64,000 nt of DNA. Source: Spirogloea muscicola. Lineage: Eukaryota; Streptophyta; Zygnematophyceae; Spirogloeales; Spirogloeaceae. The notes beneath the pieces were generated by a model, which searched no databases, was not told the DNA's origin, and worked only from the letters and a program-made list of their open reading frames with translations. Where the stretch lies: positions 117,015-181,014 of the forward strand of contig WELB01000254.1 in assembly GCA_009602725.1 (NCBI GenBank). The letters run 5' to 3'. Both the position numbers and the translations under genes were made by a program. This document shows, one piece after another, positions 29,214 through 51,830 of this stretch; within the stretch, counting starts at the first letter, position 1, and every line of letters starts with the position of its first letter.

Positions 29214-29974
29214 ATGCGCGCAGCAAGCTGTCGTTGAAGCTGTGGTCAAGGCACGTGAAAAGCATGTCCACACCCAGTGCCACCGATGCACGAGGGGCGT
29301 CGGCGCAAAGGAGGTCAACGGCCCTGCTAAAGGCTGCCACGTGGTGCACCGCAGTTGCACCTTATTGTCGGCTGCCCACCTTTGTCGGGCAGAGCTTGTC
29401 TGCCAAACCTGGGGGACGAAAGAGAAAATTGTTCCTCCAGAATGAGGTAGCGATACTGTGAAAGAGAAGTGGCTCTCCGAATAGGGGCAAGGGCTGTGAG
29501 AAGCCAGCCCAAAAAGGAGATTGACGTGGGTCGAAAAGGGCAGCCCCAAAAGGGTTGACAAAATGGGCAGCTTCTCGAGCTCTGTTCATTATTTTTCGGG
29601 CTGGTTTTTCCAGCCCCCTATTCTCAATGGGCGAGCACTTTCTTCTCGAGCTGCCCCCGCAGTTGACCCGCTCCGCGGCGGCGCGCCGCTGCCATCCGGT
29701 CGCCGCCCTTGATGGCCCCCCACTATAAGAAGCAGGAGGCTCGTCACTTAGCCCCAAGCCCCCCAGCCCCAAGCCCGGCGACCACCTGCCAGGCCCCCCC
29801 TCCCTCCCCACCCCGGCCTTCCCGCGAATCCCACCTGCCCGCCTGCTGGCCTCTCCCGCCCCACCGCCCACCCAGCGCGCCTCCCCGACCTCCCAAGCTG
29901 CCGCTGGCCTCAAGCCCCCCACTGCCCACCAGAGCGGCGTCTTGGAGCTGGCAAGCCCCCGCCTCGCTCCCGGC
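28200..29974 (+). promoter_or_regulatory. Neprosin B upstream unit and promoter
   Basis: Copy of the duplicated upstream unit. Distal part (28225-29060): GAGGACAACA(A)TC, GAGAGGGCACGGCTTGTGC, GTCTCGAGTAG, GTTGGACCGTGG. Proximal part: a run of 28 G (29186-29213) after TTGGACC, CACGTG at about 29250, GGTCAACGGCC at about 29309, GCCGGGCAG replaced by GTCGGGCAG, and TATAAG 29724-29729, 251 bp before the ATG. A 60-bp LINE tail is inserted at 29582-29641. The gene itself is dead, so this promoter probably drives at most a non-coding transcript. Confidence 0.55.
29571..29652 (+). mobile_element. 60-bp minimal LINE-tail insertion with 11-bp target duplication
   Basis: Insert 29582-29641 consists only of the LINE 3' tail: TTCATT(A)TTTTTC, hairpin GGGCTGG-TTTTT-CCAGCCC, then CAATGGGCGAGCACTTTCT. 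It is flanked by the direct repeat CTTCTCGAGCT at 29571-29581 and 29642-29652. Copies A (around 24408), C (36630) and H (63890) have CTTCTCGAGCT or a one-base variant once and no insert, giving clear empty sites. Confidence 0.9.
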
Positions 29975-32082
29975 ATGGCTCCTGCCCGCGGCCGCCGCCC
30001 CCAGCCCTCGCTTGCCTCCTCCTCCTCGCCCAGCTCCTCTTCGCCGGCCTCAGCGCCGCTGGGCAGACGCAGCAGGGCAGGCGCCTGCTCAGCAGCCCTC
30101 CGCCTTCCGCAGGTACCACTTCGGCCCCTTCGCTTACTCCTTGCGCTCAAAGCTTGCATCCGATGCATCTCAACACTGCTGGAGACGTGTCCACTGCGAA
30201 GTCTGGAGATGCTTGTTGACAAGCTGCACATTCATTCATCCACCAGATGCGGACCACCAGGCGCGCATTGCCAAGTACGTCGCCCGCCACCAGAGGCCTG
30301 CTCAGAAGACCATCCACACGGAGGATGGGGATGTCGTCGACTGCGTCAAAATTGTGGACCAGCACACCATGCAGGATGCCAAGTTCAAGGACCACAAGAT
30401 TCAGGTACTTCGCTGTCCGACACACCTTCTGCGAGGCTGTACTCAAATCGCACTGAAGACTGCGGCAGCAAGCCTTACAGAGGAGCGCAAGCACTCCACT
30501 GAATGGGTCTCGGCTGCTGGCTTCTCGCAGATGAAACCTCCTTCCCTCAAGGCCTCCGATGACGGCAAGGTCAACAGCTCGCATGTCCCAGTCAAGCAGA
30601 CCTGGGGCAGCTGCCCAGAGGGCACCATCCCCGTGCGCCGCGTCACTCGTAAGTCCTCTCCTCTTCTTTTCACTGCGATACCTGGCAACGACTTGTAGAA
30701 ACCGCGAGATACATGTCACATGTCTTATCCTATCAGCGGCGGCTGTAGCTCTTCCCAACCTTGGCTTGTGTGACATATATCAAAGTCATGCAGTCGCATT
30801 GATTCAGCCTTCCCATGTTGCAGACGACGAAGTTGCGAGGGCTGGCTCATTGCCAGAATTTTTCAAGAAGCACCCCAAGGCTCATGGCGGTGGCCATCAC
30901 CCGAACAAGGGCCAGCACAACCAAAAGAACAGCACCGGTGCGCCTGGGAACGCGACCCTCACTGCAGGCATGATGAAAGGCGGCAGCAACACCACGAGGC
31001 TTAACTACAATGCCATCCAGAAGCCCTCCTATGCGGGTCACGAGGTCAGTCGCTGTTGCTTAGTTGTGTCTAGTCAGGATTTTTTTGAGACAGTGAACTA
31101 CCATATGTTGAGACTGGCATACATCTTGGCACAGCTTGCAGTTATTGCTGCCAAGCACCTCTTCATCGTGTGCCTGCAGCTGACCATACGCTTCGTCGCG
31201 TTTTGCAGTACGCCATTGGTGAGTACAGAGGGAACAGCGGGCTCATATACGGCACCAAGGCGACATTCAACGTTTTAAACCCTTATGTGGAGTTTGCAAG
31301 CTAGTTCAGCCTCTCCCAGCTGTGGCTGGTGGCGGGGTCCTACGGCAATGGCGACCTGAACACGATCGAGGCTGGTTGGCAACTGTACCCCAACAAGTAC
31401 GGCGACTGGCAGTCAAGGCTCTTCATTTACTGGACGGTGAGTGCTATCATCGTGCGCTAGCCCCGCCTTGCTGTAAGTTGATCAGCCTTGCCATGGTAAC
31501 ATTCACCTCATCAACAGCTGGACTCACCGTTGGCTCTCTTCTTCGTGGTTTGCAGAGGGATGCATACAAGAGCACCGGCTGCTACACCCTGGACTGCAGC
31601 GGCTTCGTGCAGACCAATGGCAATGTCTACATCGGCGGCAGGGTGACTCCCGTCTCCTGGTACGGGAGCACGCAGTGGGAGTTCACGCTCCTGGTCTTCA
31701 AGGACCCCGGCTCTGGCCACTGGTGGCTCCAGTACCAGGTCAGTGGGTGGGCTACTGGCCGTGGTGGATCTTCACCCGCCTCAACAGCCATGCCGAGGTG
31801 GTCCAGTGGGGAGGCGAGATCGTGAACATCGAGCCCTACGGGAGGCACACTCGCACGTACATGGGCAGCGGCTGGTACGCGGCCAAGGGCTGGTCCTACG
31901 CTGCCTACATCCGCAACATCCAATTCGTGAACCAGTACAACACCCTCTACAACCTCGACAACGCCATCTCGTCCTACACCAGCAACAGCAACTGCTACAG
32001 CATCTGGGTCGGCGCCAATCCTGGAGGCTGGGAGGCTTACTTCTACTTCGGCGGCATTGGCTATAGCTCCATCTGCGTATAA
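29975..32082 (+). pseudogene. Neprosin B pseudogene
   Basis: Same six-exon layout as A: 29975-30112, 30247-30404, 30531-30648, 30824-31044, 31209-31436, 31555-32082, all with canonical GT-AG sites. Three lesions are visible. First, a 1-bp deletion in the signal-peptide region (about 30000; exon 1 is 138 not 139 nt) destroys the LLLLAQLL frame. Second, a TAG at 31302-31304 replaces the Glu codon in the exon 5 segment FAS-E-FSLSQ. Third, a 1-bp deletion at about 31738 (CCAGGGTCAG to CCAGGTCAG) shifts exon 6. Remaining codons are nearly unchanged, so inactivation is recent. Introns 1-3 are closest to A. Sequencing error could explain one lesion but not all three. Confidence 0.88.
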
Positions 32083-33374
32083 GCACCATAGCCTGCTGCT
32101 TGTTACAAGGAACGAAGCTGCTGTTTTATCGAGATTGCTTTCTTGGTCTTGCACACATTCTTCCTATGACATAGATAAGCACTGTCAGTGCATATAAGGC
32201 AAGCCGACTTTCCTTTTTTGCTCCTGTGTGTTAGGGGCCCCATTGTTTTGATGATTGACACATTGACATGGAGGTCTTGGTCATTGGTAGGACCGAGCAT
32301 GAATGTGTTGCATCACTTCCTTGGTAACCTCTCCCTTAGATGGGACATATTTACTTAATTTGGAAGACTTGCGACGATTGGTAGCACAGATAAATTGGCT
32401 GGAATTCCTGAAGAGGATAACAAGAGCGTCAATGCAGAAGCTGGGAAGTTACAGTGTACAGACCTGTCAGAGCATTGTGGACATACTACTCATGGTTGAC
32501 TATAGCATGTCATTGACATTGTAACCGTGGTGCTGAAGCAATCATGGTAATGAATCCAAAAAAGAGAAGATGAAGTCATTACTAGAGATTGCTGCAGGTG
32601 AGAAAAAATGATGAGTTCACGGATGTCACATCAGTTGTTGCACAGGAAAGCATGTCGTTTTCCGAATAGACTGATGCCTGTAACTTCTACGTTTTTCGAC
32701 TTCTGCTCCTAAAAGTACGGAGTCAAGCAACTTGGATACCAGCAACAACAAGATTGTCCTCATCCTGGCCTCCCAAAGTGCTTGATATTCTTGCGTTGAC
32801 CTAGTCTTTCACGAACAAAAGCTCCTCAAGGTCCTCGGTCATTAGCAGTATGGCAAGGTTTCGTGACTTGAGCAAGCTCCAATCAGATTGCCTTCTGACC
32901 AAAGCATCACAAGCCGAAGTAATCCTGATTGGATGGTGTCCTCTGGGTAGCCTTATTGTGCCGGTTGAATACTTAATAAATTTTAAGTATGTCCTGAAAA
33001 ACTATACAGCAGGAGATTGAGTAGGTCATAGTCAGGCCAAGTAGTGAAGGTTGGCAACAACCAATAGATCCGATGAGTCAAGAACTTTGGAGCAGATCAC
33101 GTGCTCGATGTCAACCAGTGATCTAGTCAATGTGTTGATTAGTGATTGCTTTAATCACTTTGATCAGTTTGATCAGATGAGCAAATGACCAGTGATTGCT
33201 TTGATCAGCAATGATCAGTGTTCAGTGAACAATCAGCTTCTGCTTAACACCATAGAACATAGCATCGTCATAGACCTTGCCAAGTGCGACTTCAAAGCAC
33301 AAGACAGTGAGCCGGCGCAACTCAGAGTGAGGTGGGAAGCTTGCAATGTAGTTGTGGCGGGGGCCTCGCTCAGC
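32083..33374 (+). repeat. Shared neprosin 3' flank (B copy) with GATCA-rich block
   Basis: Homologous to the flank after A. The GATCA-rich block is at about 33100-33230 (TTTGATCAGTTTGATCAGATGAGCA, split here by reading position) and ends at GGGGCCTCGCTCAGC, immediately before the CACGA duplication of the 2-kb insertion. No coding sequence recognised. Confidence 0.7.
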
Positions 33375-33867
33375 CACGATGAAACGTTCTGAGCCCTTCA
33401 CAGACAGTCAAACGTCCGACAGTCGAACGTCCTGATTGTATTCGGTCGCTGGGGCTGAGAGACAAACCCCCAGCACAGTGAAGCACCACATTCACACGCA
33501 GCGGAATACCTTGCCCTGAGGCGCCGCCGACAGGCGGCGACTCACCTCTCGGTACGGGCCAGCAACTGTCCCCAAAGGGAGCAGCCACAGTCTACCTCCA
33601 GGAGAGCCGATGAAGATCCGCAGGGACGGGTTGCGGCGTCGGGCTGCAGCAGCAGGCAGCAGCAGGGCTGCATCAACGAGCTGCGGCAGCAGGCGGCAGC
33701 AGGGCTGCGCGCCTCTCTCTGGCGTGGGCTTCGCTGACTTGAACCGGGTGCCCTGAAGCTGGTCTCAGCTCTACTTACAGTGCTTCATGTGCCACCCTCC
33801 CCAGGGGCCTGTGGGAGGCTCGCCAAAAGGCCCACCTTCGAGCGGGCCCGACAAGGGGGATACGATG

Positions 33868-33990
33868 GTGAGGGCGGCGGCGCCGCCATGCGCAGCGCGG
33901 CGCCGCCCTGCGCGGCGCGGCGNCATGCCGCCGGTGGTGCGGCGGCCATGCGGCGGCAGCTCCGGCGAGCCGCGGCGCGCCGCGCCTCAC
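33868..33990. repeat. GC-rich low-complexity tract with one ambiguous base
   Basis: Dense GCGGCGCC/GGCGCGGC self-complementary sequence inside the 2-kb element, with a single N at 33923. Apparent reading frames here are low-complexity Ala/Arg/Pro and are not believable genes. The N suggests unresolved structure or allelic difference. Confidence 0.7.
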
Positions 33991-34359
33991 CGTCGCGCGT
34001 CGCCCACGTCGTACACGCCAACCATACTAGGGGCTGAGCTGAGCTACTCGTTGGTGCCCTATTAGGGCTAACCGAAATGCTCAGGACCCGGAGTATCATC
34101 GTCACTCAGGTGGGCCTCAGCCGATGATGCCGATGATGAAGCTTGAGGCTCAGACGATGGAGAAGCGGCGCTCTTGAAGGGGGTGCCGCGCTCTTTCCTC
34201 GCCTTCTTGCCCACGGCAAAGATGGCCTTCTTGACCATGGCGGTGACGGCGGCAGGGTCCGGCAGGAAGCACGCCGGCAGCGACTCAAGGCAGGTGGCGT
34301 GGGCGCTGGCAAGCAAGGAGGAGCAGTGGGCAAAAGGAGGACGGTGGCTCCTGTTAGAG

Positions 34360-34980
34360 TGAGTGAGCTTGTGCTCACTCGACCCCCTTGTGTTCCTCGG
34401 ACGAGGCGTGTCGATCTGGTTGGCGTTCCCCTGGGAGGTGGCAAGCGGCTCATCATGGACGTCGTCTGAAGGAACAGCTTCCGGACGAAGGGCCCCGTAA
34501 CTTCTGAGACCGGCTATGCCGTGAAGGTGGCCGAAAAGAAGAAGTTGCACAAGTACAAGGACCACCCGGCTGGTGATACCTTTTACCCCCTGGCCATAGA
34601 CATCCATGGGTGTTACGGGGGTCGGTGATCCTCGCTACTTTCGCTGCTGGCATCTCAAGCTGACCAGCCGCGCCGGGAACAGGGTGCAGCCCTTCCGGGT
34701 GGCTCGGTGCCTTTGGGTCTTGTGTCCTGCTACCGCATGCGTTTTTCTATGTCCCTCCAGCGGTCCCAAGTGCTTGCTTTGCACCGCCGCGCTGGTCGCG
34801 CCCTTGTAGCAGCCTCTGGCTCGCACGGCGGGGTTGCTCTTCCTCCCCTCAGCTCATCTGACTTCCTACTGCTGACACGGGGGTACTAAGAGCTGCCCTG
34901 GCTGCCTAGCCTGTGGCTCCGTCATAAACACCTGTATGCATCTGGCTGGCTTTCACAGCCGCTCTTTTCATATCAGCAGC
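34360..34980 (+). mobile_element. LINE 3' fragment nested in the 2-kb element
   Basis: Decayed copy of the LINE C-terminal ORF. Successive frames read RTRRVDLVGVPLGGGKRL and MDVV (about 34400-34470), ETGYAVKVAEKKK with HKYKDHPAGDTFYPLAID (about 34502-34600), and VSCYRMRFSMSLQRSQVLA...LLTRGY stop (34720-34889). These match the 22441-23523 ORF block by block but are split by frameshifts. It is followed by a GGCTGGCTTTCACAGCC tail hairpin at about 34951-34967. Confidence 0.75.
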
Positions 34981-35359
34981 CGCGTTCTTTTGCCTACATT
35001 GAAAGAATGCAAATCACATGGGCACAGTGGGTCCCGGCGGGTCAGCCCGCCGGAGGCTTGGAGGCCCGCCTGCAGAGCCGGCCCAAAGGTGTCCGTTAAG
35101 CTAATCGGGCAGGGTGTGAGGCACAGGTGTGAGGCACAATCTCACACGTGTGATCTGCCTACGTGTCACCCTGATGGTCCGGGCAAGCCGCCCCGGAAGC
35201 GACAGGTGCTTCCCTAAGTGGGACACTTTGAATAAGGCTATGAAGGCTAAATGAAGGCTAAATGCAAGGGCTGATGCATAAAATCTACGCGCCGTTACCA
35301 CGCGTTAGCGTTTAACCCAAGGTCAAACGTCACGTAACGGGTGAGGACGTTACACACGA

Positions 35360-36875
35360 GGACAACAATCAGAATTCAAAGGCGTGTTGTGGAGGATGGG
35401 CTAGACCTGGAAGCAGATGTAATCCATATATGTAATCCACAGCTTTATCAGGCAGTAAGCCAAAAAAGCTACTCACGGCACAGAGGCATTTGAAGAGAGG
35501 ATGTGAGAGAGCACGGCTTGTGTAAGCTAACTCGATACAAGGGGAATGTAGCAGTCATGAGTTCTACAGGTGAGAAGCTTCTTTGGAAAGCAATGGCTTG
35601 CAACCACCACTTCGAAGCTGAAAGCGTGTGCTGCAGGGCGGACCTCCGCCAATGTGCCCGGCCTGGGTGGAGGTCGCGCCGCTGTCTCGAGTAGCTCATA
35701 GATGGCTAGAAGAGAGGTGTTGGGTCCACAGCGAGCACGGAGTTGGACGCGAGCAGCCAGCTTGGCGGAGAAATCCAACGCCCGCCCGACGACCAGATAC
35801 TTACCTAGACGCACACGCGCTGGTCCCCTGTCAGGTCAACAGCATCAAGGCACGTCAGAGTGTCCCACGTGCTGAGGGGCCGAGCAGACCGAGGCGGTGG
35901 TGCTCCGCGGACTGCTGCGCGCGTTGGACCGTGCCTTCAAGCCTCCGTGAAGGAGGAGCATGCTCTCCCAACTTGGGGGGGCGCAGTAAGGCTTTTTCGG
36001 GCAAGGTTGCGCACGCGTGCTTTAGCGCATATCTGGCCCCTGGAAAGTCTGTACATAATTCTCCTGGGCTAGCCGATCGCAGTCATCGCCGCTCTTCTGG
36101 AGGAGTATTTCTCCCGCTCTCTCGAAGCGGCAAGCGCACGAGTTGGTCGCCGCAATGGCCGGCTTGCCGGCGGCCCCAAGCTTCCAACCCCGATCCGGGG
36201 GTGCTGCCTGTTCGCCACGTGTCAGCTCGAGCGTTCAGCTTAGACCGGGGAAGGGTAGACCGGGGGGTGGGGGGGGGGGGGGGGGGGGGGGGCGGCAAGC
36301 TAGCGTGGAAGCTGTGTCCAAGTCACGTGACAAGCGTGTACAACAGCCACGGGCACCGGCGCCGGAGGGGGCGTCAGCGCAAAGGAGGTCAACGGCCTGC
36401 TCAGTGGCTGCCACGTGGTGCACTGCAGTTGCACCTCACCTGCCCACTGCCCGACTTTGCCGGGCAGCCGCCGGGGGGGCAGAGGGAGAGAGCTTTTCGT
36501 CCAGATCAAACGGGGCGATGCTGTGGAAAAAGAAGCAGCTCTCCTAATGGGGGCAAGTGCCGTGAAGCCCGAAAAGAATCGACAAGATTCGAGAGGGCAG
36601 CCCCAAGAGGGGGCAACTTCTTCGAGCTGCCCCCGCGCGCCGCTGCCGTCCAGCCACCGCCGCTATAAGAGGCACGAGGCTCGTCACTTGTTGTTCCAGC
36701 CCCTATTCTGAATGGGCGAGCACTTTCTTCACTTGGCCCCAAGCCGCCCAGCCCCAAGCCCGGCGACCACCTGCCAGGCCCCGCGCACCCCACCTGCCCG
36801 CCTGCTGGCCTCTCCCGCCCCACTGCCCACCCGAGCGGCCTCTTCGAGCTGGCAAGCCCCCGCCTCGCTCCTGGC
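35360..36875 (+). promoter_or_regulatory. Neprosin C upstream unit and promoter
   Basis: Continues the duplicated unit after the insertion: GAGGACAACAATC, GAGAGAGCACGGCTTGTG (about 35505), GTCTCGAGTAGC (about 35685), GTTGGACCGTG (about 35925), a G run of 24 (36269-36292), CACGTGACAAGCGTG (about 36323), GGTCAACGGCCTGC (about 36387), GCCACGTGG (about 36409), TGCCGGGCAG, and TATAAG 36664-36669, 212 bp before the ATG. A 38-bp LINE tail sits between TATA and ATG. Confidence 0.6.
36684..36735 (+). mobile_element. 38-bp minimal LINE-tail insertion with 7-bp target duplication
   Basis: Insert 36691-36728 starts within the hairpin (TTGTTCCAGCCCC), runs through AATGGGCGAGCAC and stops at TTTCT. It is flanked by TCACTTG at 36684-36690 and 36729-36735. 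Copies A (GTCACTTGGCCCC, about 24508), B (GTCACTTAGCCCC) and E (inverted, about 50400) hold this sequence once and no insert. The insertion lies between the TATA box and the start codon, so probably in the core promoter or 5' UTR. Confidence 0.9.
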
Positions 36876-38998
36876 ATGGCTCCCGCCCGGGGCCGCCGCC
36901 CGCTAGCCCTCGCCTGCCTCCTCCTCCTCGCCCAGCTCCTCTTCGCCGGCCTCAGCGCCGCGGGGCAGACGCCGCAGGGCAGGCGCCTGCTCAGCAGCCC
37001 TCCGCCTTCCGCAGGTACCCTACTTCGGCCCCTTCGCTTACTCCTTGCGCTCAGACCTTGCATCCGATTCATCTCAACACTGATGGAGACGTCTCCACTG
37101 CGGAGTCTGGAGAACCTTGCTGACAAGCCGCATACTCGTTCATTCACCAGATGCGGATCACCAGGCGCGCATGGCCAAGTACGTCGCCCGCCACCAAAGG
37201 CCTGCTCAGAAGACCATCCACACGGAGGATGGGGATGTCGTTGACTGCGTCAAGATTGCGGACCAGCACACCATGCAGGATGCCAAGTTCAAGGACCACA
37301 AAATTCAGGTACTTTGCTGTCCGACACACCTTCCTCGAGGCTGTAGTCCAGCCTCGCTGCAGACTGCGGCAGCAAGCCTGGCAGAGGATCGCAAGCTCGC
37401 CGTCATCAGCATTTTACCCAACAATCTTCGACTGCTGGCTTCTCGCAGATGAAACCCCCTTCCCTCAAGGCCTCTGATGATGGCAAGGTCAACAGCTCGC
37501 ATGTCCCAGTCAAGCAGACCTGGGGCAGCTGCCCAGAGGGCACCATCCCCGTCCGCCGCGTCACTCGTAAGTCCTCTCCTTTTCTTCCATCACTTTTCCT
37601 AGCAAGACTTGAGAAACGGCAAAGCAGATTTCACATGACCTACTCTATCAGCTGCGTCTGTAGCTCTTCAGAACCTCCGTTTGTCTGACAAATGTCAAGT
37701 CATGCAGTCGTGATGTAGCCTTCCCTTGTTGCAGACGACGAAGTTACCAGGGCTGCCTCGTTGCCAGACTTTTTCAAGAAGCACCCCAAGGGTCATGGCG
37801 GTGGCCATCACCCAAACAAAGGCAAGCACAACCAAAAGAATAGCACTGGTGCGCCTGGGAACGAGACCCTCACTGCGGGCATGATGAAAGGTGGCAGCAA
37901 CACCACGAGGCTCAACTACAATGCCATCCAGAAGCCTTCATATGCGGGTCACGAGGTCAGTCGCAGTTGCTCAACTGTGTCTTAGCCAGAAACAAGGACT
38001 CCTCTGAGAGTGAGGTGGCCTATGTTGAGACTGGCATACATCGTGGCACAGCTTGCGAATCTTGCTGCCAAGTGCCTCTCTATCACGTGCCTGCAGCTGA
38101 CCGCATGCTTTGTCGCATTCTGCAGTACGCCATTGGTGAATACAGAGGGAACAGCGGGCTCATATATGGCACCAAGGCGACATTCAACGTCTGGAACCCG
38201 TATGTGGAGTTTGCGAGCGAGTTCAGCCTCTCCCAGCTGTGGCTGGTGGCGGGGTCCTACGGCAACGGCGACCTGAACACGATCGAGGCGGGTTGGCAGC
38301 TGTACCCCAACAAGTACGGCGACTGGCAGTCCAGGTTCTTCATCTACTGGACGGTGAGTGCTGTCAATTGCCGCCAGCAGCCCTGCTGTAAGATGGTCAG
38401 CCTTGCCATAATCAACTTTCACCTCATCATCAGCTGGACTCACCATCCGCTCTCGTCTCCGTGGTCGCAGAGGGATGCATACAAGAGCACCGGCTGCTAC
38501 AACCTGGACTGCAGCGGCTTCGTGCAGACTAACGGCAATGTCTACCTCGGCGGCAGGGTGACTCCCGTCTCCTGGTACGGGAGCACGCAGTGGGAGTTCA
38601 CGCTCCTGGTCTTCAAGGACCCCGGCTCTGGCCACTGGTGGCTCCAGTACCAGGGTCAGTGGGTGGGCTACTGGCCGTGGTGGATCTTCACCCGCCTCAA
38701 CAGCCACGCCGAGGTGGTCCAGTGGGGAGGCGAGATCGTGAACATCGAGCCCTACGGGAGGCACACTCGCACGTACATGGGCAGTGGCTGGTACGCGGCC
38801 AAGGGCTGGTCCTATGCTGCCTACATCCGTAACATCCAATTTGTGAACCAGTACAACACCCTCTACAACCTCGACTACGCCATCTCTTCCTACACCAGCA
38901 ACAGCAACTGCTACAGCATCTGGGTCGGAGCCAATCCTGGAGGCTGGGAAGCTTACTTCTGCTTCGGCGGCATTGGCTATAGCTCCATCTGCCCCTAA
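36876..38998 (+). CDS. Neprosin-family glutamic peptidase precursor C
   Basis: Intact 463-aa gene with the same architecture as A. Exons 36876-37014, 37151-37308, 37449-37566, 37735-37955, 38126-38353, 38471-38998, all joining in phase. Signal peptide with LACLLLLAQLLFAGLSAA; activation peptide (VVDCVKIADQHTMQDAKF; CPEGTIPVRR); His/Lys/Gly linker; neprosin domain with the E266/E376 pair. The protein ends SSICP as in E, and introns 3 and 5 are also E-like, so C and E are the closest pair, now in opposite orientation. Exon 4 and intron 4 are nearly identical to A. Intron 5 is 117 nt, a multiple of three with no in-frame stop, so a retained-intron product would stay in frame. One Tyr to Cys change (EAYFCFGG) is seen near the C-terminus. 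Confidence 0.92.
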
Positions 38999-41040: not shown

Positions 41041-41150
41041 ATGGTGCCGGTCGCGCTTTGGCTGCAGCCTCTGGCTAAAGACAGGGGACCCGTACCCGGA
41101 GACTAGTTCTCTGGCCTGCGGCTATTCAACAGGGGGTCTTGAGCACCCAA
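41041..41150 (+). mobile_element. LINE ORF 3'-end remnant
   Basis: GCAGCCTCTGGCT then CAGGGGACCCG and CTGCGGCTATTCAACAGGGG reproduce the final codons of the LINE ORF (Ala-Ala-Ser-Gly, Gln-Gly-Thr, Leu-Arg-Leu-Leu-Ser-Arg-Gly) with frame damage. It is followed by a different 3' sequence containing a perfect hairpin. Confidence 0.55.
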
Positions 41151-41152
41151 TG

Positions 41153-41191
41153 GCCACTTGAGTAGATTTTTCCAACAGCTACTCAAGTGGC
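41153..41191. repeat. Perfect 13-bp hairpin
   Basis: GCCACTTGAGTAG (41153-41165) and CTACTCAAGTGGC (41179-41191) are exact reverse complements around a 13-nt loop. It lies just after a LINE ORF end and may be the 3'-UTR hairpin of a divergent LINE subfamily. Confidence 0.7.
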
Positions 41192-41255
41192 TGTCCCTTC
41201 ACTGGCCCCTCTGGATTTGTTACTGTCCTTTTTCCTAGGCTGGTAAGTCACAGCC

Positions 41256-41490
41256 ATGGCCCTGCGAAGTCCGCGACGCTCGTCGGGCACGCGGTCGCTC
41301 TGGCGGCTCGGAGTAAGGAGCGCAAGTACTCTGACCACCCTCCAGGCGATGCCTTCGCGGCACTGGCCATTGACGTACACGGGGCCTTTGGCAGTGGCTG
41401 GTTGGATCTCCTCCAGCGGCTTGCCCGGGAGGCCATCGAGCGGCGGCAGGGTTCGCCAGGCTTCAATGCTGCCGGCTCCCTCTCGCAGGT
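41256..41490 (+). mobile_element. LINE ORF fragment running into the assembly gap
   Basis: Reads VALAARSKERKYSDHPPGD, then LAIDVHGAFGSGWLDLLQRL and AAGSLSQ, which aligns with the 23150-23360 part of the LINE ORF (AARAKELKYADHP; LAIDTHGALGARWLELLTQL; AAGSLAQ). The fragment is cut by the gap at 41491. Confidence 0.75.
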
Positions 41491-42298
41491 NNNNNNNNNN
41501 NNNNNNNNNNNNNNNNNNNNNNNNNNNNNNNNNNNNNNNNNNNNNNNNNNNNNNNNNNNNNNNNNNNNNNNNNNNNNNNNNNNNNNNNNNNNNNNNNNNN
41601 NNNNNNNNNNNNNNNNNNNNNNNNNNNNNNNNNNNNNNNNNNNNNNNNNNNNNNNNNNNNNNNNNNNNNNNNNNNNNNNNNNNNNNNNNNNNNNNNNNNN
41701 NNNNNNNNNNNNNNNNNNNNNNNNNNNNNNNNNNNNNNNNNNNNNNNNNNNNNNNNNNNNNNNNNNNNNNNNNNNNNNNNNNNNNNNNNNNNNNNNNNNN
41801 NNNNNNNNNNNNNNNNNNNNNNNNNNNNNNNNNNNNNNNNNNNNNNNNNNNNNNNNNNNNNNNNNNNNNNNNNNNNNNNNNNNNNNNNNNNNNNNNNNNN
41901 NNNNNNNNNNNNNNNNNNNNNNNNNNNNNNNNNNNNNNNNNNNNNNNNNNNNNNNNNNNNNNNNNNNNNNNNNNNNNNNNNNNNNNNNNNNNNNNNNNNN
42001 NNNNNNNNNNNNNNNNNNNNNNNNNNNNNNNNNNNNNNNNNNNNNNNNNNNNNNNNNNNNNNNNNNNNNNNNNNNNNNNNNNNNNNNNNNNNNNNNNNNN
42101 NNNNNNNNNNNNNNNNNNNNNNNNNNNNNNNNNNNNNNNNNNNNNNNNNNNNNNNNNNNNNNNNNNNNNNNNNNNNNNNNNNNNNNNNNNNNNNNNNNNN
42201 NNNNNNNNNNNNNNNNNNNNNNNNNNNNNNNNNNNNNNNNNNNNNNNNNNNNNNNNNNNNNNNNNNNNNNNNNNNNNNNNNNNNNNNNNNNNNNNNNN
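41491..42298. other. Assembly gap (808 N)
   Basis: Run of 808 unknown bases, followed by a run of 16 C (42299-42314) and C-rich low-complexity sequence. The gap hides the junction between the LINE copy on its left and the Harbinger remnant on its right. Long open frames crossing it are artefacts. Confidence 0.99.
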
Positions 42299-42521
42299 CC
42301 CCCCCCCCCCCCCCTTCAGACCCCAGGAAGGCTGCCCTGCCTGCCCGAAAAATGGGACAGCTGGCACCTCCACCCCGCCAAATACACGGGATTTCAAATA
42401 CAAAAACCACCCCCCCCCAAAACCACCCCCCCTCGCCCCCCATCCTCCTCGGCAGGCCAGGGGGAGCTTGACCAGCCTCCCCTTCGCACCCGCCATTCTC
42501 CCTCCCTTCTGCCTCTCCTGA

Positions 42522-43330
42522 TCAGGAGCGACGTCGCGCGCCTCCCGCCCGCCTCCCGGCAGCTCTGGCCTGCAGCGCTGTCATAGCGCCAGCCAAGGCC
42601 GCGAAGCCCCCGGACAGCCGCGCTGCATTCCCAAGCAAACAGTAGTGGCCAAGTCTCCCTTCCGCACACGCCCGACCGATTTCGCTCAGCTGGAAGACCG
42701 CACAGTCGTGCATGCTGCCGCACCGGCCGACGTCCAAGTCCCAGATCTTGCGCTTTGCGTCGGCCACCACCTGCAGAAGCACTGAGTAGTGACTCTTACG
42801 GTTGTAGTAGTCTTGGGGATCAACACTTGGCCGGATGATCGGGATGTGGGAGCCGTCGACAGCGCCGATGACGTACGGGATACCTGCGAGCTCCCGGGAC
42901 TCGGCGGCCATGCCGTCCATCCCCGCGTGTGTCGGCCACCTGACTGGTACCGGAAGCAGGATGTCCCTGATAGCGAGCAGCACCTATCTGACGATGAGGC
43001 TAGCCGTGCACGCCGCTATCCCGAGAAGATCGGCTGTGTCCCGGAGTCCACATCCGGTTGCCAGGCGGTGCAGCGTGCAATCCATGCTTCTTCCGGCACA
43101 GCTGCTCTGTACTTCGTGTCCCGCTTCTCGATCGCGCCGCGGAGAGCCTGGACCAGCCTGTCAAAGACTCTGCGCGACACTCTCACGCGCTTCCGGAATT
43201 GCTCCTTGGTGAAGTCGACCTGCAGCTGGTGGAGCCAGCCGGCTCCACCAGCTGCGTGGAGCTCCACAGGAGGCGCGGTGCTCTCTCCTCCTCCCCTTGC
43301 AGCAACATCGTGGCCACGAGCGCCAAGAAC
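42522..43330 (-). pseudogene. PIF/Harbinger-type transposase (DDE_Tnp_4-like) pseudogene
   Basis: Reading right to left: an N-terminal block with FTKEQFRKRVRVSRRVFDRL and KRDTKYRAAVP (43267-43070), then in another frame LHRLATGCGLRDTADLLGIA followed by SLIVR and a TAG at about 42984-42988, then LLAIRDILLPVPVRWPT, IPYVIGAVDGSHIPI, YYNRKSHYSVLLQVVAD, KIWDLDVGRCGSMHDCAVF. GAVDGSHI carries the first DDE aspartate and the WDLDVG...GSMHD region the second. The sequence degenerates after LLGNAA before the third acidic residue. At least one frameshift (about 43075) and one nonsense codon make it non-functional. Order and motifs are typical of plant Harbinger transposases. Confidence 0.8.
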
Positions 43331-43365
43331 GCCATGACCTTGATCTGCTGCAAGAGCGGCAGCGA

Positions 43366-43415
43366 ATTCGCCTCCGCCGACGCCTCCGCCTCCGCCTCCG
43401 CCTCCGTCGAGCGCA
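43366..43415. repeat. CCTCCG hexanucleotide microsatellite
   Basis: Four to five tandem CCTCCG/GCCTCC units. On the minus strand it would encode an Ala-Glu repeat at the start of the Harbinger reading frame, but whether that part was ever coding is unclear. Confidence 0.6.
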
Positions 43416-43789
43416 GGTGCCAGGTCAGGACTGTCATCGTGACGCAGCAGATCCGCCTCGGCTCGGGCCCCATGCCTGCAGGCCCTGGTCGGCTGCAGGA
43501 AGGGGGGAGCTTGCGCCTGCGGGGGCGCTCGACCAGGCTGCGCTGCGGGAGGCGGCGCTGCTGCTAGGGTTAAGAAGAAAGACGCTTCCAGGAGAGGGCG
43601 GCGACTGGGAGAGGCCAGATGCGGTTTGGAGCTGCTGCCCTAGCGCGCTGGGCAGCCAATCCGACCTGGCGGGGCTTGGGGGACGGTTCCGCACGTGCAG
43701 GTGGCCTCGGCCTCCGTGGCAGCGGCCCCCCTTCACCCGGCGGTCAACACCATTTTGGCCGACCAACCCGGTGTAACCCGGCCTTAAAG
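43416..43789. other. Non-coding stretch beside the Harbinger remnant
   Basis: No gene recognised. It ends in GGTGTAACCCGGCCTTAAAG at about 43770-43789, which could be the right edge of the transposon, but the gap on the other side prevents matching it to an inverted repeat. Confidence 0.35.
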
Positions 43790-44180
43790 AACAACAAGCA
43801 CAAGAAGAAACTAAGCAGCTACGAAGCACTCAGTAACCCCTGCTAAACCCTTCTGCCCATGGAGGATAGGGGCTGGAGAAGCCACCTGAGTCTGCTGAGC
43901 AGCCTCAGGTCAAAGAAACTGAGTTCCTAGACGCGGGTTCCCTGGCCAGAGCCAGAGGAAAGCTTCCTCCAGAAGAGGTAAGAAAGCACGGCCAGATTGA
44001 CTGGTGGCTGGGAAAGGCCAGCCCAAAGGAGTGGACAAGGTCTGAAGGAGCCGGAGTGCGAAGGACTAGGACTAAGACATTAGCCAGGGAACGCTCAGTT
44101 ATCTCTAGTCAGGAGATGCAAGTCTGAGTAGCTAGCCGGCGGAAAGACGTCGCCCTGACGGAAGCCGGAGGCCGAAGACG
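43790..44180 (-). mobile_element. Two LINE 3' ends in tandem (minus)
   Basis: On the minus strand, 44175-44096 reads ASGFRQGDVFPPASYSDLHL and ends LLTRDN stop, the LINE ORF C-terminus. It is followed by a 3' UTR with TTGTCCACTCC and the hairpin GGGCTGGCCTTTCCCAGCC (about 44003-44021). A second ORF end (GSGQGTRV, ELSFFDLRLLSR) follows at about 43985-43915 with its 3' UTR to about 43790. They interrupt an inverted neprosin upstream unit at the same place as the insertion at 63160. Confidence 0.65.
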
Positions 44181-44189
44181 GCGATGACC

Positions 44190-45420
44190 GGGGTTGGCCA
44201 GCCCAGGGGAAGTATGTCCAAGGTCCGAAGGGGCCAGGAAAGCACTCAAGCACGGATCCGCCACCTTTTCCGTGCTTGAGTGCTTGAGAGAGAGAAAGAA
44301 GCCTTACTGCCATCCCCCTACTTGGGAGAGCGGCTACTTCTTCTTCTTCACGAAGGCATGGACCCACGGTCCAACGGGAGCAGCCGTCCAAGGAGCACCA
44401 CGGCCTCGGTGTGCTCGGCCCCTCAGTACGTGGGACAGTACGTCTCACGTGCCTTTGATGCTATTCAGCTGACTTGGGACCAGTGCGTGTGCGTCTAGGC
44501 ACACACTTTGGTCAGGACGGCGAAAGATTGCCTCGCCAACCTGGCTGCGTCCAACTTTGTTCTCGCTGCAGACCCAACACTTCTTTCATCTAGCCATCTA
44601 TTAGCATCTCAAGACAGAGGCGCTACCTCCATCCAGGCCGGGCACTTTGGTGGAGGCTCGCTCTGCAGCCCACGCTTTCAGCTTCGAATTGGTGGCTGCA
44701 AGCTATTGCTTTCCACAGAAGCTTCTCACCCACATGGCCCGTGACGACTACTACATTCTCCCCTTGTATCGAGTTAGCTTGCACAAGCCGTGCCCTTTAA
44801 CATTCTTTCCAAAAAATTCTCTTTGCATTGAGAAAGCTTGCTTGGCTAACTGCGCACGACTTGGTAAGGCTATCATTATACAGATGAATGAATATCAGCT
44901 TCACGATCTAGCCCATCCTACACAACAGGCCTTTGATCTCTGATTATTGTCCTCGTGGATCATCGAGGCCACGACCACATTGCGAGATTGCCACCTCATT
45001 TTAAGTTGCGCCGACCTTACTGTCTTGTGTTTCGAAGTCGCAAGTGGCAAGGTCTATAACGCTGCTATGTGCTAATGTCTTGAGCGGAAGCTGAATGATT
45101 ACTAGATAACTGATCATTGCTGATCAAAGGAATCACAGATCGTTGCAAATCTTTTCAAATTGATCAAACTGTTCAAAGCAGTGATCACTAATCAAGTTGA
45201 TCAGAGCAGTCACTGATCAAAGAGAGAAGGCGTGCGGTGCGCATGAAATTGAAAGGGAGGCCATTCCTAGCTTTACAAATGTCCTGTTACGGGGTAATCA
45301 AAGGAGTCAATTGATCATTGGTTGACGTTAAGCAAGTGATTTGTCGAAAATTCTGTCGCCTTAACGGAGCGATTGATAAGGTAGTTGCCAGCCTTCACTA
45401 CTTGGCGGTCAACAAGATTA
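44190..45420 (-). repeat. Inverted neprosin upstream unit plus GATCA-rich block
   Basis: Minus-strand copy of the duplicated unit: GTTGGACCGTGGGTCCATGC (about 44375), CGTGGGCTGCAGAGCGAGCC (about 44660), GGGCACGGCTTGTGCAAGC (about 44780), GAGGACAATAATCAGAGATC (about 44945), then the GATCA-rich block (about 45100-45330). No neprosin gene follows in this direction; LINE, Harbinger and gap sequence come instead, so the copy is orphaned. Confidence 0.6.
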
Positions 45421-46401
45421 TGACCTACTCATATCCTGCTGTATACCATTGTAGGGTAAACTAAGCTGAAACATAATACCCAACCTGCACAAGAAGGCCA
45501 CCCAGAGGACACCATCAAATCCAGACCACTCCCGCTTGTGATGCAACGGTCAGACGGCAGAATGATTGGAGGCTTGCTCAAGTCACAAAACCGTGGCATC
45601 CTGCTAATGTCCGAGGACCTTGAGGAGCATTTGTCCATGAGAAACAGGTCGTCGAAGAGTATCAAGCTCTTTGGGAGGCCAGGGTGAGCACATTCGTGTT
45701 GTTGCTCGTGATCCAAGTTGCTTAGCTTTCACTCAAGCCTAGCTCATAAGGCCGCACTGCAGCCTATCAAGACCAAGATTCGGCTGTGGAGGTGGCCACT
45801 CGGCCCGTGCTTTGAATAAGGAGCAAAAGTCGAAGACCCTTTCAGAAGCACAGGCAAGCTGTCAGTTCGGAAAATCGTAAACTTCTCAACATTTCTCTCC
45901 CCTGCAGCAATTTCTACTAGCGACTCTATCTTCTCACTGTCAGATTCCATACCATTATTGCGTCAACACCACGATTACATACAAAATCAATGACATGCTA
46001 GAGTCAACTATGAGTAGTATGTCCACAATGCTCTGACGGGACTTTACAAAGTAACAACCCAGCTTCTGTAATAATGCTTTTATTATCCTCTCAGAGAGTC
46101 GAGCCAAATATCTGTGCTATTAATTGTCTTCTGAGTGTCCCATCTATGCGAGAGATTATCTAGGGAGTGATGCAACACACTCATGCTCGGTCCTACCAAT
46201 GAACAAGACCTCAATGTCAATGTCTCAATATTAAGACCAATGGGGCCCCTCACATGAAGGAGCACAGAACACGAAAATGGGAAATCGGCTCTTCTATCAA
46301 GCTCTGCAGTGCTTACATATGTCATGGTAATAAAGTGCAAGACCAGGAGATCAATTGGATGCAACAGCAGCTTCGCTTCCTACAAGCAGCAGTTATAAGC
46401 C
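45421..46401 (-). repeat. Shared neprosin 3' flank (D copy)
   Basis: Reverse-oriented equivalent of the flanks after A, B and G: TAGGACCGAGCATGAGTGTG (about 46180), AGATAATCTC, GCAATATTTCT-like degraded segments, and AATTGCTGCAGGGGAGAGAA (about 45905). No coding sequence recognised. Confidence 0.6.
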
Positions 46402-47535
46402 TTATACGCAGATGGAGCTATAGCCAATGCCGCCAAAATAGAAGTAAGCCTCCCAGCCTCCAGGATTGGCTCCGACCCAGATGCTGTAGCAGTTGCTGTT
46501 GCTGGTGTAGGAAGAGATGGCGTAGTCGAGGTTGTGGAGGGTGTTGTACTGGTTCTCGAACTGGATGTTACGGATGTAGGTAGCGTAGGACCAGCCCTTG
46601 GCCGCGTACCAGCCGCTGCCTATGTACGTGCGAGTGTGCCTCCCGTAGGGCTCGATGTTCACGATCTCGCCTCCCCACTGGACCACCTCGGCGTCGCTGT
46701 TGAGGCGGGTAAATCCACCACAGCCAGTAGCCCACTCACTGACCCTGGTACTGGAGCCACCAGTGGCCAGAGCTGGGGTCCTTGAAGACCAGAAGCGTGA
46801 ACTCCCACTGCGTGCTCCCGTACCAGGAGACCGGAGTTACGGTCCCGCCCAGGTAGACATTGCCATTCGTCTAAGCCGCTGCAGTCCAGGTTGTAGCAGC
46901 CGGTGCTCTTGTGTGCATCCCTCTGCGACCAGGGAGACGAGAGCCGGCAGTGAGTCCAGCTGTTGATGAGGTGAAACCTAACATGGCAAGCCTGACCATC
47001 TTACAGCAAGGTTGCTAGTGGCGATTGACAGCACTCACCGTCCAGTAGATGAAGAGCCTGGACTGCCAGTCGCCGTACTTGTTGGAGTACAGCTGCCAGC
47101 CCGCCTCGATCGTGTTCAGGTCGCCATTGCCGTAGGACCCCGCCACCAGCCACAGCTGGGAGAGGCTGAACTCGCTTGCAAACTCCACATACGGGTTCCA
47201 GACGTTGAATGTCGCCTTGGTGCCATATATGAGCCCGCTGTTCCCTCTGTATTCACCAATGGCGTACTGCAGAATGTGACAAGGCATGCGGTCAGCTGCA
47301 GGCACGTGATCGAGAGGCAGTTGGCAGCAAGGTCTGCAAGCTGTGCCACAATGTATGCCAGTCTAAACATAGGCCACTTCACTTTCAGAGAAGTCCTTGT
47401 TTCTGATTAGGACACGATTTAGCAACTGCGCCTGACCTCGTGACCCGCATATGAAGGCTTCTGGATGGCATTGTAATTGAGCCTCGTGGTGTTGCTGCCA
47501 CCTTTCATCATGCCTGCAGTGAGGGTCTCGTTCCC
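46402..47535 (-). pseudogene. Neprosin D pseudogene, 5'-truncated
   Basis: Only the last third of exon 4 (47535-about 47435, from NETLTAGMMKGGS), intact exon 5 (47266-47039, 228 nt with TIEAGWQ) and exon 6 (about 46926-46402) remain. Exon 6 has a 5-bp deletion at about 46870, a Trp to TGA stop at 46738-46736 (QGQW site), and a 2-bp deletion at about 46710; its last 93 codons are otherwise open and end SSICV. Exons 1-3, promoter and signal peptide are gone: at 47535/47536 the exon is fused to the 3' flank of gene E. The catalytic-type Glu codons survive but cannot be expressed as a normal precursor. Confidence 0.88.
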
Positions 47536-48051
47536 GACTTCGATGTGATTGCATTGCTGCCTTACATAGTTTTCCTTGTAGAATGTCAATGTGGTCGTAC
47601 TAGTACTGACTTGCTTACGTGACTCGCTTTGCAGATCTGTAAACTTCGACACAGCAACAGCTCAGGCTCTGCATAGCAGTGTCTTTCAAATTTAGAGGAA
47701 CTTATTTACATTAATCGTCTGCATTTGTGGGGTATGGTTTGACATACTGAGAATGCTCGAGTGATAAGGGAATTAATGAATGGTGCTGCAAAACGTGCAT
47801 CGATCTGTAGCTCACAACATCTTGACCACCATTTGTATGACATGACAATTACCCATAATCAGATCAATGTTATTCATGAGAAGTAGTTCCACTGTCCTTC
47901 AAAAGAAGGACCTCAGACATATACAAAATGGGCAGGTCATGTCATCGACACTCCTCTCAGGTCTGCCTGTCATCTATCCGGGTCTTGACCAGTCCCACAG
48001 CCAGAACAGCTCCTAAGCAGTAACTTTGTACAAGCAGCAGTCTATGTTGCT
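47536..48051 (-). repeat. 3' flank of neprosin E, inverted copy of C flank
   Basis: Reverse complement aligns with 38999-39523. It contains the 3' UTR of E and ends at the breakpoint with pseudogene D. Confidence 0.75.
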
Positions 48052-50185
48052 TTAGGGGCAGATGGAGCTATAGCCAATGCCACCAAAGTAGAAGTACGCC
48101 TCCCAGCCTCCAGGATTGGCTCCAACCCAGATGCTGTAGCAGTTGCTGTTACTAGTGTAGGAAGAGATGGCGTAGTCGAGGTTGTAGAGGGTGTTGTACT
48201 GGTTCACGAATTGGATGTTACGGATGTAGGCAGCGTAGGACCAGCCCTTGGCCGCGTACCAGCCGCTGCCCATGTACGTGCGAGTGTGCCTCCCATAGGG
48301 CTCGATGTTCACGATCTCGCCTCCCCACTGGACCACCTCGGCGTGGCTGTTGAGGCGGGTGAAGATCCACCACGGCCAGTAGCCCACCCACTGACCCTGG
48401 TACTGGAGCCACCAGTGGCCAGAGCCGGGGTCCTTGAAGACCAGGAGCGTGAACTCCCACTGCGTACTCCCGTACCAGGAGACAGGAGTCACCCTGCCGC
48501 CGAGGTAGACATTGCCGTTGGTCTGCACGAAGCCGCTGCAGTCCAGGTTGTAGCAGCCGGTGCTCTTGTATGCATCCCTCTGCGACCACGGAGACGAGAG
48601 CCGACAGTGAGTCCAGCTGTTGATGAGGTAAATGTTGATTATGGCAAGGCTGACCATCTTACAGCAGGGCTGCTGGCGGCAATTGACAGCACTCACCGTC
48701 CAGTAGATGAAGAGCCTGGACTGCCAGTCTCCGTACTTGTTGGGGTACAGCTGCCAACCCGCCTCGATCGTGTTCAGGTCGCCGTTGCCGTAGGACCCCG
48801 CCACCAGCCACAGCTGAGAGAGGCTGAACTCGCTTGCAAACTCCACATATGGGTTCCAGACGTTGAATGTCGCCTTGGTGCCATATATGAGCCCGCTGTT
48901 CCCTCTGTATTCACCAATGGCGTACTGCAGAATGCGACATAGCATACGGTCAGCTGCAGGCACGTGATAGAGAGGCACTTGGCAGCAAGATCTGCAAGCT
49001 GTGCCGCAATGTATGCCAGTCTCAACATAGGCCAACATAGGCCACTTCACTCTCAGAGGAGTGCTTGTTTCTGACTAGGACACAGTTGAGCAACTGCGAC
49101 TGACCTCGTGACCCGCGTATGAAGGCTTCTGGATGGCATTGTAGTTGAGCCTCGTGGTGTTGCTGCCGCCTTTCATCATGCCTGCAGTGAGGGTCTCATT
49201 CCCAGGCGCACCGGTGCCATTCTTTTGGTTATGCTTGCCTTTGTTTGGGTGATGGCCACCGCCATGACCCTTGGGGTGCTTCTTGAAAAAGTCTGGCAAT
49301 GAGCCAGCCCTCGCAACTTCGTCGTCTGCAACAAGGGAAGGCTACATCAATGCGACTGCATAACTTGACATTTGTCGGACAAACGGAGGTTCTGAAGAGC
49401 TACAGACACAGCTGATAGAGTAGGTCATGAGAAATTCGCTTTGCCGTTTCTGAAGTCCTGCCAGGAAATGTGATGGAAGAAAAGGAGAGGACTTACGAGT
49501 GACGCGGCGGACGGGGATGGTGCCCTCTGGGCAGCTGCCCCAGGTCTGCTTGACTGGGACATGCGAGCTGTTGACCTTGCCATCATCGGAGGCCTTGAGG
49601 GAAGGGGGTTTCATCTGCGAGAAGCCAGCAGCCGAAGATCGTTTAGTAGAATGCTGATGAAGGCGAGCTTGCGATCCTCTGCCAGGCTTGCTGTCGCAGT
49701 CCGTAGCGAGGCTGGACTACAGCCTCGCAGAAGGTGTGTTGGACAGCAAAGTACCTGAATTTTGTGGTCCTTGAACTTGGCATCCTGCATGGTGTGCTGG
49801 TCCGCAATCTTGACGCAGTCGACGACATCCCCATCCTCCGTGTGGATGGTCTTCTGAGCAGGCCGTTGGTGGCGGGCGACGTACTTGGCCATGCGCGCCT
49901 GGTGATCCGCATCTGGTGATTGAACGAATGTGCGGCTTGTCAGCAAGGATCTCCAGACTTCGCAGTGGAGACGTGTCCATCAGTGTTGAGATGAATCGGA
50001 TGCAAGGTTTGAGCGCAAGGAGTAAGCGAAGGGCCCGAAGTGGTACCTGCGGAAGGCGGAGGGCTGCTGAGCAGGCGCCTGCCCTGCTGCGGCTGCACCG
50101 CGGCGCTGAGGCCGGCACAGAGGAGCTGGGCGAGGAGTAGGAGGCAGGCGAGGCCGAGCGGGCGGCGGCCCCGGGCGGGAGCCAT
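48052..50185 (-). CDS. Neprosin-family glutamic peptidase precursor E
   Basis: Intact 463-aa gene on the minus strand. Exons 50185-50047, 49912-49755, 49614-49497, 49325-49105, 48924-48697, 48579-48052, lengths identical to A and C. Signal peptide with LACLLLLAQLLCAGLSAA; activation peptide; His/Lys/Gly linker with NGT, NET and NTT sequons (A and C have NST first); neprosin domain with E266 and E376. Ends SSICP like C, with C-like introns 3 and 5; intron 5 is again 117 nt, open and in frame. Intron 4 contains a small tandem duplication (GGCCTATGTT repeated, about 49025-49045). Best current partner of C; together with the shared 3' flank they form an inverted duplication about 9 kb apart. Confidence 0.92.
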
Positions 50186-51830
50186 GCGGGGGGCGAGGCG
50201 GCGGCTCGTCAGCTCCAAGAGGCCGCTCTGGTGGGCAGTGGAGGGTATGAGGCCAGCGGCAGGTTGCGAGTTCGGGAAGGCGCGCTGGGTGGGCGGTGGG
50301 GCGGGAAAGGGCAGCAAGCGGATAGAGGCCGGGGTGGGAAGAGGGGCCGGGGTCGCCTGGCAGGGGGCCGTCGGGCTTGGGGCTGGGGGGCTTGGAGCCA
50401 AGTGACGAGCCTCCTGCCACTTATAGTGGGGGGCCTAGCGGCGTCGACCGGACGGCAGCGGCGCGTCGCCGTCGGCGCGGGTCAACGGCGGGGGCACCTC
50501 GAGAAGCTGCCCGGTGTGTCAAAGAGCCTCTCGAAATGGGAAGGCGCCCTCTTTGTTTTCGGGCTGGTTGTTCCAGCCCCTATTCTCAATGGGCGAGCAC
50601 TTTCTTCTTTGTTTCTGCCCGTTCCGCGGCATCGCTCCCCTTTTCGGTGGAAATACTTCCGTGTGGCGCGTCAATCAAGCGCTGCCCGGCCAAGCCGGGC
50701 AGCCGGGGTGATGTGCAATGCTGGTGCTCCACGTGGCGCGCTGCCGATAGGCCGTTGACCTCCTCCACGCCGACGCCCACATCTCACCCGCCGAAGACCG
50801 TGGCGTCAACGGCATCGGAGCACCTGTCACCGTGTTAGCTCACTGAAGCTTCTGCGGCGCTTTCTTCTCCCACTCGTGCTCCGAATGTTTGGGGGTCCCT
50901 TGAGCGGCCACGTGGCGCGCAGGCAGCCCCCCCCGGCTTGGTGGAAGCTTGGGGCCGCCGGTCGCCGGCCATTGCTAGCGCCCAGCCCGTGCGCCTGCCA
51001 CATCCGCCACCTTGCCCTTGACGAGGAAGCCCCACTGCCATTCCCCCACTTGGGAGAGCGGCTTCTTCCTCTTCTAGAAGGCTTGGCTCTCACGGCCCAC
51101 CGGGCGCAGCCGTCCACGGAACACCACTGCCTCTCTGTGCTCGGCCAGTCGGGAACGTGTGACAGCCTGACGTGCCGTATACTGCTGTTGACCTGACACG
51201 GGACCAGCGGGTGTGCGTCTCTGCACACAATCTGGTCGTCGGGCGGGCGACACGACAATCTGGCTCCCTCGCGTCCAACGCCGTTCTCTCTGCGGGACCA
51301 GCACGCCTTTCATCTAGCTATCTATTAGCTGATCGAGAAAGCGGAGTGACCTCCACTCTGGGCGGCACATTGGCGGAGGCTCGCTTACAGCCAACGCTTC
51401 CAGCTTCAGTGTGGTGATGCAAGTCATTCTTAAGCAGAGAACGCACCCCAAAGCAGAGCAAGGCAAAACCTAAAGACTTAGCTAGAATCTCTTTCTGCAC
51501 AGGTAGAAGTAAATTGACTAGTAAATACTTCAAGTTCTCCTTCTCATCGATGCAGATTGCACATGCCCTGCCTTCCTCACAATTTTGCTCTGAATCGCCT
51601 CTTTGCAGTAAGATAGCCTGCTTGTGTAAATGACCATGACTTGGGAGACTAGCCCATCCTCCACAATATGCCTTGAATGTATGGTTGTTGTCCTCGCGCC
51701 TGATCGAGCCCACGCCATGGCCACATTGCGAGCTTCACACCGCATTCTAAATTGCGCCGCCCTTACAGTCTTGTGTTTTTCTAAGAGGCACGTGGCAGAA
51801 ATCCTTAGTCTATAACCATGCTACGTGCTA
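50186..51830 (-). promoter_or_regulatory. Neprosin E upstream unit and promoter (minus)
   Basis: Reverse-oriented module: TATAAG at 50425-50420, 240 bp from the ATG; GCCGGGCAG with GGCCGTTGACCTCC (about 50690-50770); GCCACGTGG (about 50727 and 50909); a short C run (50927-50934); the distal unit with GTCGGGCGGGCGA and GACGTGCCGTATA (51170-51250); and TTGTTGTCCTCGCG...GAGCCCACGCC (about 51685-51715), an uninterrupted equivalent of the site split at 33375. Unit homology fades at about 51830. A LINE tail interrupts it at 50559-50605. Confidence 0.6.
50550..50614 (+). mobile_element. 47-bp minimal LINE-tail insertion with 9-bp target duplication
   Basis: Insert 50559-50605 is the tail only: TCGGGCTGG-TTGTT-CCAGCCCC hairpin, ATTCTCAATGGGCGAGCAC, TTTCT. 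It is flanked by TCTTTGTTT at 50550-50558 and 50606-50614. It lies about 130 bp upstream of the E TATA box and in the opposite orientation to gene E, so it is not the same event as those in B and C. Confidence 0.85.

Follow-up and report, generated by a model that had tools for sequence, protein, structure and literature searches.

CR1 of Anolis is a long interspersed nuclear element (LINE) whose endonuclease is of the apurinic/apyrimidinic endonuclease (APE) type. Many CR1 insertions in this host are severely truncated, to less than 50 bp, with truncation likeliest near the 3' end and few full-length copies (PMC5389967). A range of 100 to 1,000 bp is given for truncated LINE copies in a second source, which also records a conserved 3' stem-loop in LINEs of the stringent type; such LINEs and their short interspersed nuclear element (SINE) partners, including RandI/Dualen and SINEX of Chlamydomonas, have a conserved stem-loop tail and a common 3' end (PMC3747384). 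LINEs of the R2 group (R2, R4, NeSL and HERO) carry a restriction-like endonuclease and a single long open reading frame (ORF) with a central reverse transcriptase (RT); four clades with such an endonuclease are described as mostly target-specific, and HERO as holding many non-specific members (PMC4640811). In the streptophyte Spirogloea muscicola we have found a LINE family that shares with Anolis CR1 its insertions of less than 50 bp, its tendency to be truncated near the 3' end and its few full-length copies, but belongs to another clade and another host. With the stringent-type pairs it shares the stem-loop tail and common 3' end, although no SINE with a fixed 5' end was seen in our sample. 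With the R2 group it shares the single long ORF and central RT, which matches R2 proteins; in contrast to that group, its sampled copies are dispersed, with a preference for CT only and no single gene target, and most are extremely short. A dispersed family of this kind is less usual but has a precedent, since HERO has many non-specific members. The family was recognized through three short inserts at neprosin genes in a stretch of 64,000 nucleotides (assembly GCA_009602725.1, contig WELB01000254.1, positions 117,015 to 181,014 of the forward strand), the whole of which is referred to here as the window. With a probability of about 0.9, each of the three inserts arose independently as a 5'-truncated copy of this one abundant LINE family, made by target-primed reverse transcription that terminated early. 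The common 3' end, the truncation spectrum, the target duplications, the CT preference and the LINE coding capacity are all shown here.

All three inserts read on the plus strand, and each is bounded by an exact target duplication. Insert 1 is a 60-bp 5'-truncated LINE tail at 29582..29641, which lies 334-393 bp upstream of the neprosin ATG at 29975 and has its 3' edge 83 bp upstream of a TATAAG at 29724; its 11-bp duplication, CTTCTCGAGCT, occupies 29571..29581 and, identically, 29642..29652. Insert 2 (36691..36728) is a 38-bp tail located between a TATAAG at 36664 and an ATG at 36876, with the 7-bp TCACTTG on either side (36684..36690 and 36729..36735). It begins TTGTTCC..., in the loop of the hairpin GGGCTGG-N5-CCAGCCC, and so is without the 5' hairpin arm. 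Insert 3 is a 47-bp tail at 50559..50605 that is upstream of, and antisense to, a neprosin gene on the minus strand (ATG 50185, TATAAG 50425), and the 9-bp TCTTTGTTT flanks it at 50550..50558 and 50606..50614. The neprosin ATGs of the window were placed by a gene-family motif rather than from transcripts; identity of the family comes from the frame at 37844-38998, which matches PF03080 (E 5.6e-63). At up to two mismatches, the sequence GGGCGAGCACTTTCT has eight matches in the window, whereas shuffles average 0.19. Positions 41491-42298 are a run of N and unreadable.

The original prediction had given these coordinates and duplications exactly. It had also held that paralogues supply empty sites, which was borne out for inserts 1 and 2. 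An alignment of six upstream regions, in which those near 54 and 59 kb gave no useful alignment, showed the empty site of insert 1 (CTTCTCGAGCTG-type) uninterrupted in three paralogues, of which two differ by a single changed or added base, and that of insert 2 (TCACTTGgcccc-type) likewise in three, two with one base changed in or beside the site. For insert 3 the support is weak, as the matching paralogue stretch is too diverged for a clean call. Paralogues do not have inserts 1 and 2, and each of the three inserts has its own site and its own duplication; on this basis they are independent insertion events.

The source of the tails is seen in a longer LINE copy at 22402..23645 of the plus strand, which is missing its 5' part and consists of the C-terminal portion of the ORF (open frame 22402-23523, of which the first bases are perhaps not LINE) followed by a 3' untranslated region (UTR) of 122 nt, measured from the stop codon to the CTTTCTT end, with the same 27-nt tail core at 23619-23645. 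UTR and tail are joined to the ORF stop codon in longer copies at other loci too, which bears out the LINE origin that had been proposed for the inserts. Tails of related LINE families surround the longer copy (22161-22419 and 23646-23790), dense, nested and in both orientations, and more distant fragments of LINE protein, 47% and 51% identical to the C-terminus, occur at 34401-34886 and 41162-41491. The same contig holds another copy, L148 (C254:49700-57200), in which a frame runs from stop to stop for 1,357 aa; the central part of this frame is a reverse transcriptase (PF00078, RVT_1; E 7.9e-16). Among solved structures, three sequences matched at E up to 0.01, all of them R2 retrotransposon proteins at E ~1e-6, and on these matches the RT is placed provisionally near R2. 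An N-terminal C2H2 zinc finger is weakly supported, by Pfam matches below threshold at 265-285 and a weak alignment to the R2 finger, and the C-terminus has a Cys/His motif, with D185 and K215 invariant in five aligned rows, two of which are 99% identical. We take this D...K pattern to resemble the motif of a restriction-like endonuclease. The predicted structural model of the C-terminus has the order alpha-beta-beta-beta-alpha-beta, but at a mean pLDDT of only 44. The restriction-like endonuclease of this family is accordingly likely but putative. The 1,300-aa frame gave no APE domain among its Pfam matches; Dualen, by contrast, possesses both endonucleases (PMC4640811). Frames related to this LINE are abundant, with 122 scored among 21,480 first-look candidates.

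The original prediction proposed a search of the whole genome with the tail, and this was performed with the 27-nt core. The exact 27-mer, CTATTCTCAATGGGCGAGCACTTTCTT, has 1,381 copies in the 153-Mb genome, and its reversed control has none. A wider pattern allowing up to three mismatches has 8,313 copies (54 per Mb; control 0), the exact 16-mer GGGCGAGCACTTTCTT has 2,993, and a 33-mer extending into the 3' arm of the hairpin has 1,283. At two loci (L105 and L107) tails are adjacent in opposite orientation, with their 3' ends face to face. In order to obtain a length spectrum, the first 100 exact 27-mer places listed, on contigs C1 to C9, were all examined; the 3' end served as the search key and the truncation points are the outcome. 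For most of these places only 287 nt upstream were fetched. A 5' break could be mapped in 84, of which 83 fall at 0-264 nt beyond the core and one at 1,165 nt, and the other 16 are open, reaching the end of the fetched DNA or N. Successive intervals beyond the core hold 12 places (0-20 nt), 14 (20-40), 11 (40-60), 9 (60-80), 3 (80-100), 13 (100-140), 15 (140-180, 2 open), 5 (180-220, 2 open) and 9 (220-287, 4 open), with 8 more open at 287 nt and the single break at 1,165 nt. The hazard per nucleotide in successive bins was 0.0065, 0.0068, 0.0049, 0.0066 and 0.0036, so that the stop rate stays at 0.4-0.7% per nt up to 287 nt, and the median copy length is ~132 nt with the core included. The claims of a common 3' end with variable 5' truncation and of a LINE that aborts early are thereby upheld, the latter in the sense of tens to a few hundred bases. 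Shorter inserts were sought among 32 places on C1 that have the 16-mer but not the exact 27-mer. Twenty of these were fetched and judged by eye, and most proved to be sequence variants; one (L173) is an insert of ~23 nt with a 5-6 bp duplication, and another (L179) has ~17 nt of insert and some 13 nt of filler within an 8-bp duplication.

This spectrum bears on the suggestion, made in the original prediction, that a SINE-like tail RNA is mobilised. On such a reading, a discrete short transcript or processed 3' end would be moved in trans by the LINE, and the bare tails would be full-length copies of a tiny non-autonomous element. Inserts of tens of nucleotides are indeed common, and a few copies have the tail attached to other repeat bodies (X and Y). 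The breaks, however, show no peak at a single 5' point and no defined full-length unit among the 84 mapped; the 42 at 1-80 nt are compatible with a uniform spread (Kolmogorov-Smirnov p 0.50), and breaks continue beyond. The X and Y bodies are also found without the tail, and by eye they look like separate families into whose CT-rich ends tails were inserted. As to a tRNA, 7SL or 5S head, the window has no Rfam match at gathering score, and the three inserts are LINE UTR sequence. We regard a SINE-like RNA as very improbable. Two further repeat families, ending ...TAATACACG and ...GCGCGCCTTCTC (e.g. L083, L018, L002 and L094) have variable starts and are sometimes followed by the tail directly after their 3' end.

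The same breaks speak to whether the template hairpin halts the RT and so gives rise to bare tails that start at the stem. Some sampled copies (L013, L033, L035 and L016) and insert 3 of the window do start at or next to the stem base. Nevertheless, 8 of the 42 breaks at 1-80 nt lie inside the 19-nt hairpin, which is the uniform expectation (p 0.59) and no pile-up, and the hazard is unchanged further upstream; arrest at the hairpin is thus highly unlikely. Of 110 distinct tails, selected because the UTR block precedes them, 78 have the hairpin sequence exactly, and 91% of cells pair, against at most 66% for slid versions. A candidate outer stem, GUUCAUU/AAUGGGC, which came from the fold of one copy (z -3.7), was rejected by eye, as a GTTGATT variant in the loci breaks a pair and is uncompensated. 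The idea that the inserts seed new hairpins into promoters does not hold as a rule, because insert 2 is without one arm.

It could further be supposed that the short copies are what is left of once longer insertions, or that their similarity and flanking repeats are due to chance, and indeed 59 of the 84 copies are without an exact duplication of at least 8 bp. The remaining 25 have one, against 1.57 expected with swapped flanks, and 20 of the 84 have at least 9 bp, against 0.73; the greatest lengths are 18 bp, in L078, and 15 bp, in L071, where one base overlaps the insert. Even among the shortest copies, those up to 60 nt beyond the core, 8 of 38 have an abutting duplication of at least 8 bp, where 0.62 were expected, and the reversed-pattern controls gave none. 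The flanking repeats are therefore not chance when many copies are considered, and for the three inserts of the window, where the duplications abut directly, internal deletion of longer elements does not apply. We give this explanation almost no credence. The target itself has a clear preference: CTTTCTT is followed by C in 91 of 100 places and by CT in 71, whereas CT makes up 8% of nearby DNA. In 31 copies with a duplication of at least 7 bp, the duplication starts exactly after CTTTCTT in 13, 1-5 bases earlier in 12, thus overlapping the tail, and 1-3 bases later in 6. Together with the CT preference, this pattern would fit an RNA that ends in CU and pairs with the target primer.

We hypothesize that the LINE protein recognises its own RNA by the 3' end, namely the stem-loop and the next 27 nt, and that it nicks one strand where the other reads CT.... 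First-strand synthesis would be primed from the nick, with the primer end pairing with the terminal CU of the RNA. The RT would then drop off at a roughly constant rate of about half a per cent per nucleotide, such that the usual product is very short, and a small processive minority of runs would reach full length. Cleavage of the second strand some bases downstream would yield the target duplications, commonly of 6-18 bp. Tail scraps would be scattered genome-wide because copying of the element usually stops early. In these steps, the enzymatic events and the role of the stem-loop are presumed from the products.

Several points weigh against early-terminated target-primed reverse transcription as the origin of the inserts. 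The many copies without an exact duplication of at least 8 bp have been mentioned. In four of the 100 places the sequence immediately before the core is diverged, and these may be another subfamily. The mapped break points are approximate, with some copies nested or shared via other repeats. The hairpin arms scarcely vary, so that pairing is not proved by covariation. No Pfam match was obtained for an endonuclease domain, and the C-terminal model is poor, as noted above. Finally, a constant hazard would yield no full-length copies, yet open frames of 1,200-1,450 aa, which may run through N, are present in 17 of the 122 copies scored. Two classes of RT run must therefore be assumed. A more specific proposal, which we offer as speculative and rather doubtful, is an RT with two modes: a default abortive one, in which each base from the very start carries a memoryless stop chance of ~0.5%, and a rare processive one that keeps the family alive. 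The abortive scraps, with their duplications, would be sprayed preferentially into gene-upstream DNA.

Whether chromatin or a tethering factor directs insertion to promoters, or to those of neprosin genes in particular, was considered on the basis of tail counts. The neprosin set comprised 16 genes with alignable upstream DNA on contigs C254, C74, C93 and C136, this being what remained of 25 matches after 9 were set aside (second pieces of the same genes, exon-only matches and a match at a contig end). Tails were counted within 600 bp upstream of the ATG, which was inferred by homology for two genes. Seven tails were found in 6 of the 16 genes (9,255 bp), where 0.50 were expected; at the 13 genes besides the three with window inserts there are 4, against 0.40. 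The controls were 20 regions of 830 bp, each preceding a Ras or histone domain; in 4 of them N makes up more than half of the sequence. They were scanned with up to four mismatches, although the matches found have 0-1. These regions hold 4 tails in 3 of the 20 (14,210 bp without N), against 0.77 expected. In the window, exact tails number 3 against 0.58 expected (p 0.02), and one of the inserts stands between TATA and ATG. Near copies in the window, however, number 5 against 3.5 expected, the numbers are small, the three neprosin genes were chosen after the fact, and selection against exon hits together with CT-rich composition could also enrich upstream DNA. The density of 0.76 tails per kb at neprosin genes is not clearly different from the 0.28 of the controls (p 0.13, or p 0.46 without the three genes). 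On these small numbers, gene-upstream DNA in general seems enriched in tails, and active targeting is possible but, in our estimation, unlikely. The claim that recurrence is special to neprosin promoters is not sustained, given the thousands of copies genome-wide and the tails at unrelated gene starts. In the mechanism favoured here, promoters would receive copies since insertions in this genome seem often to land or survive in gene-upstream DNA, and neprosin genes would not be targeted. Sister families behave alike, as tails of a sister type (GAGCCC for GAGCAC) occur at three other neprosin genes (L127, L128 and L130), the last in the TATA region. The neprosin array itself exists in three diverged versions (C254, C74 and C93), with upstream stretches 79-88% identical, and by eye some Ras-type genes are present in two or three similar copies; this multiplicity suggests polyploidy or uncollapsed haplotypes.

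The original prediction could name no described family whose insertions are so short; many severely truncated CR1 insertions of less than 50 bp are on record for Anolis (PMC5389967). As very short insertions are already in print, the process behind our finding is a known one that here takes an unusually short form, and a known behaviour is extended to an R2-like LINE. What seems notable is the near-constant stop rate alongside full-length survivors. Insertions so short easily escape repeat annotation, yet each adds tens of bases and a duplication, here in or near a promoter. With more than 1,000 copies sharing one 3' end, the family is a natural record of RT stops, so that genome sequence alone could reveal how processive an R2-like enzyme is. 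If the two-mode RT is true, the scraps would be a continuous supply of small promoter insertions.

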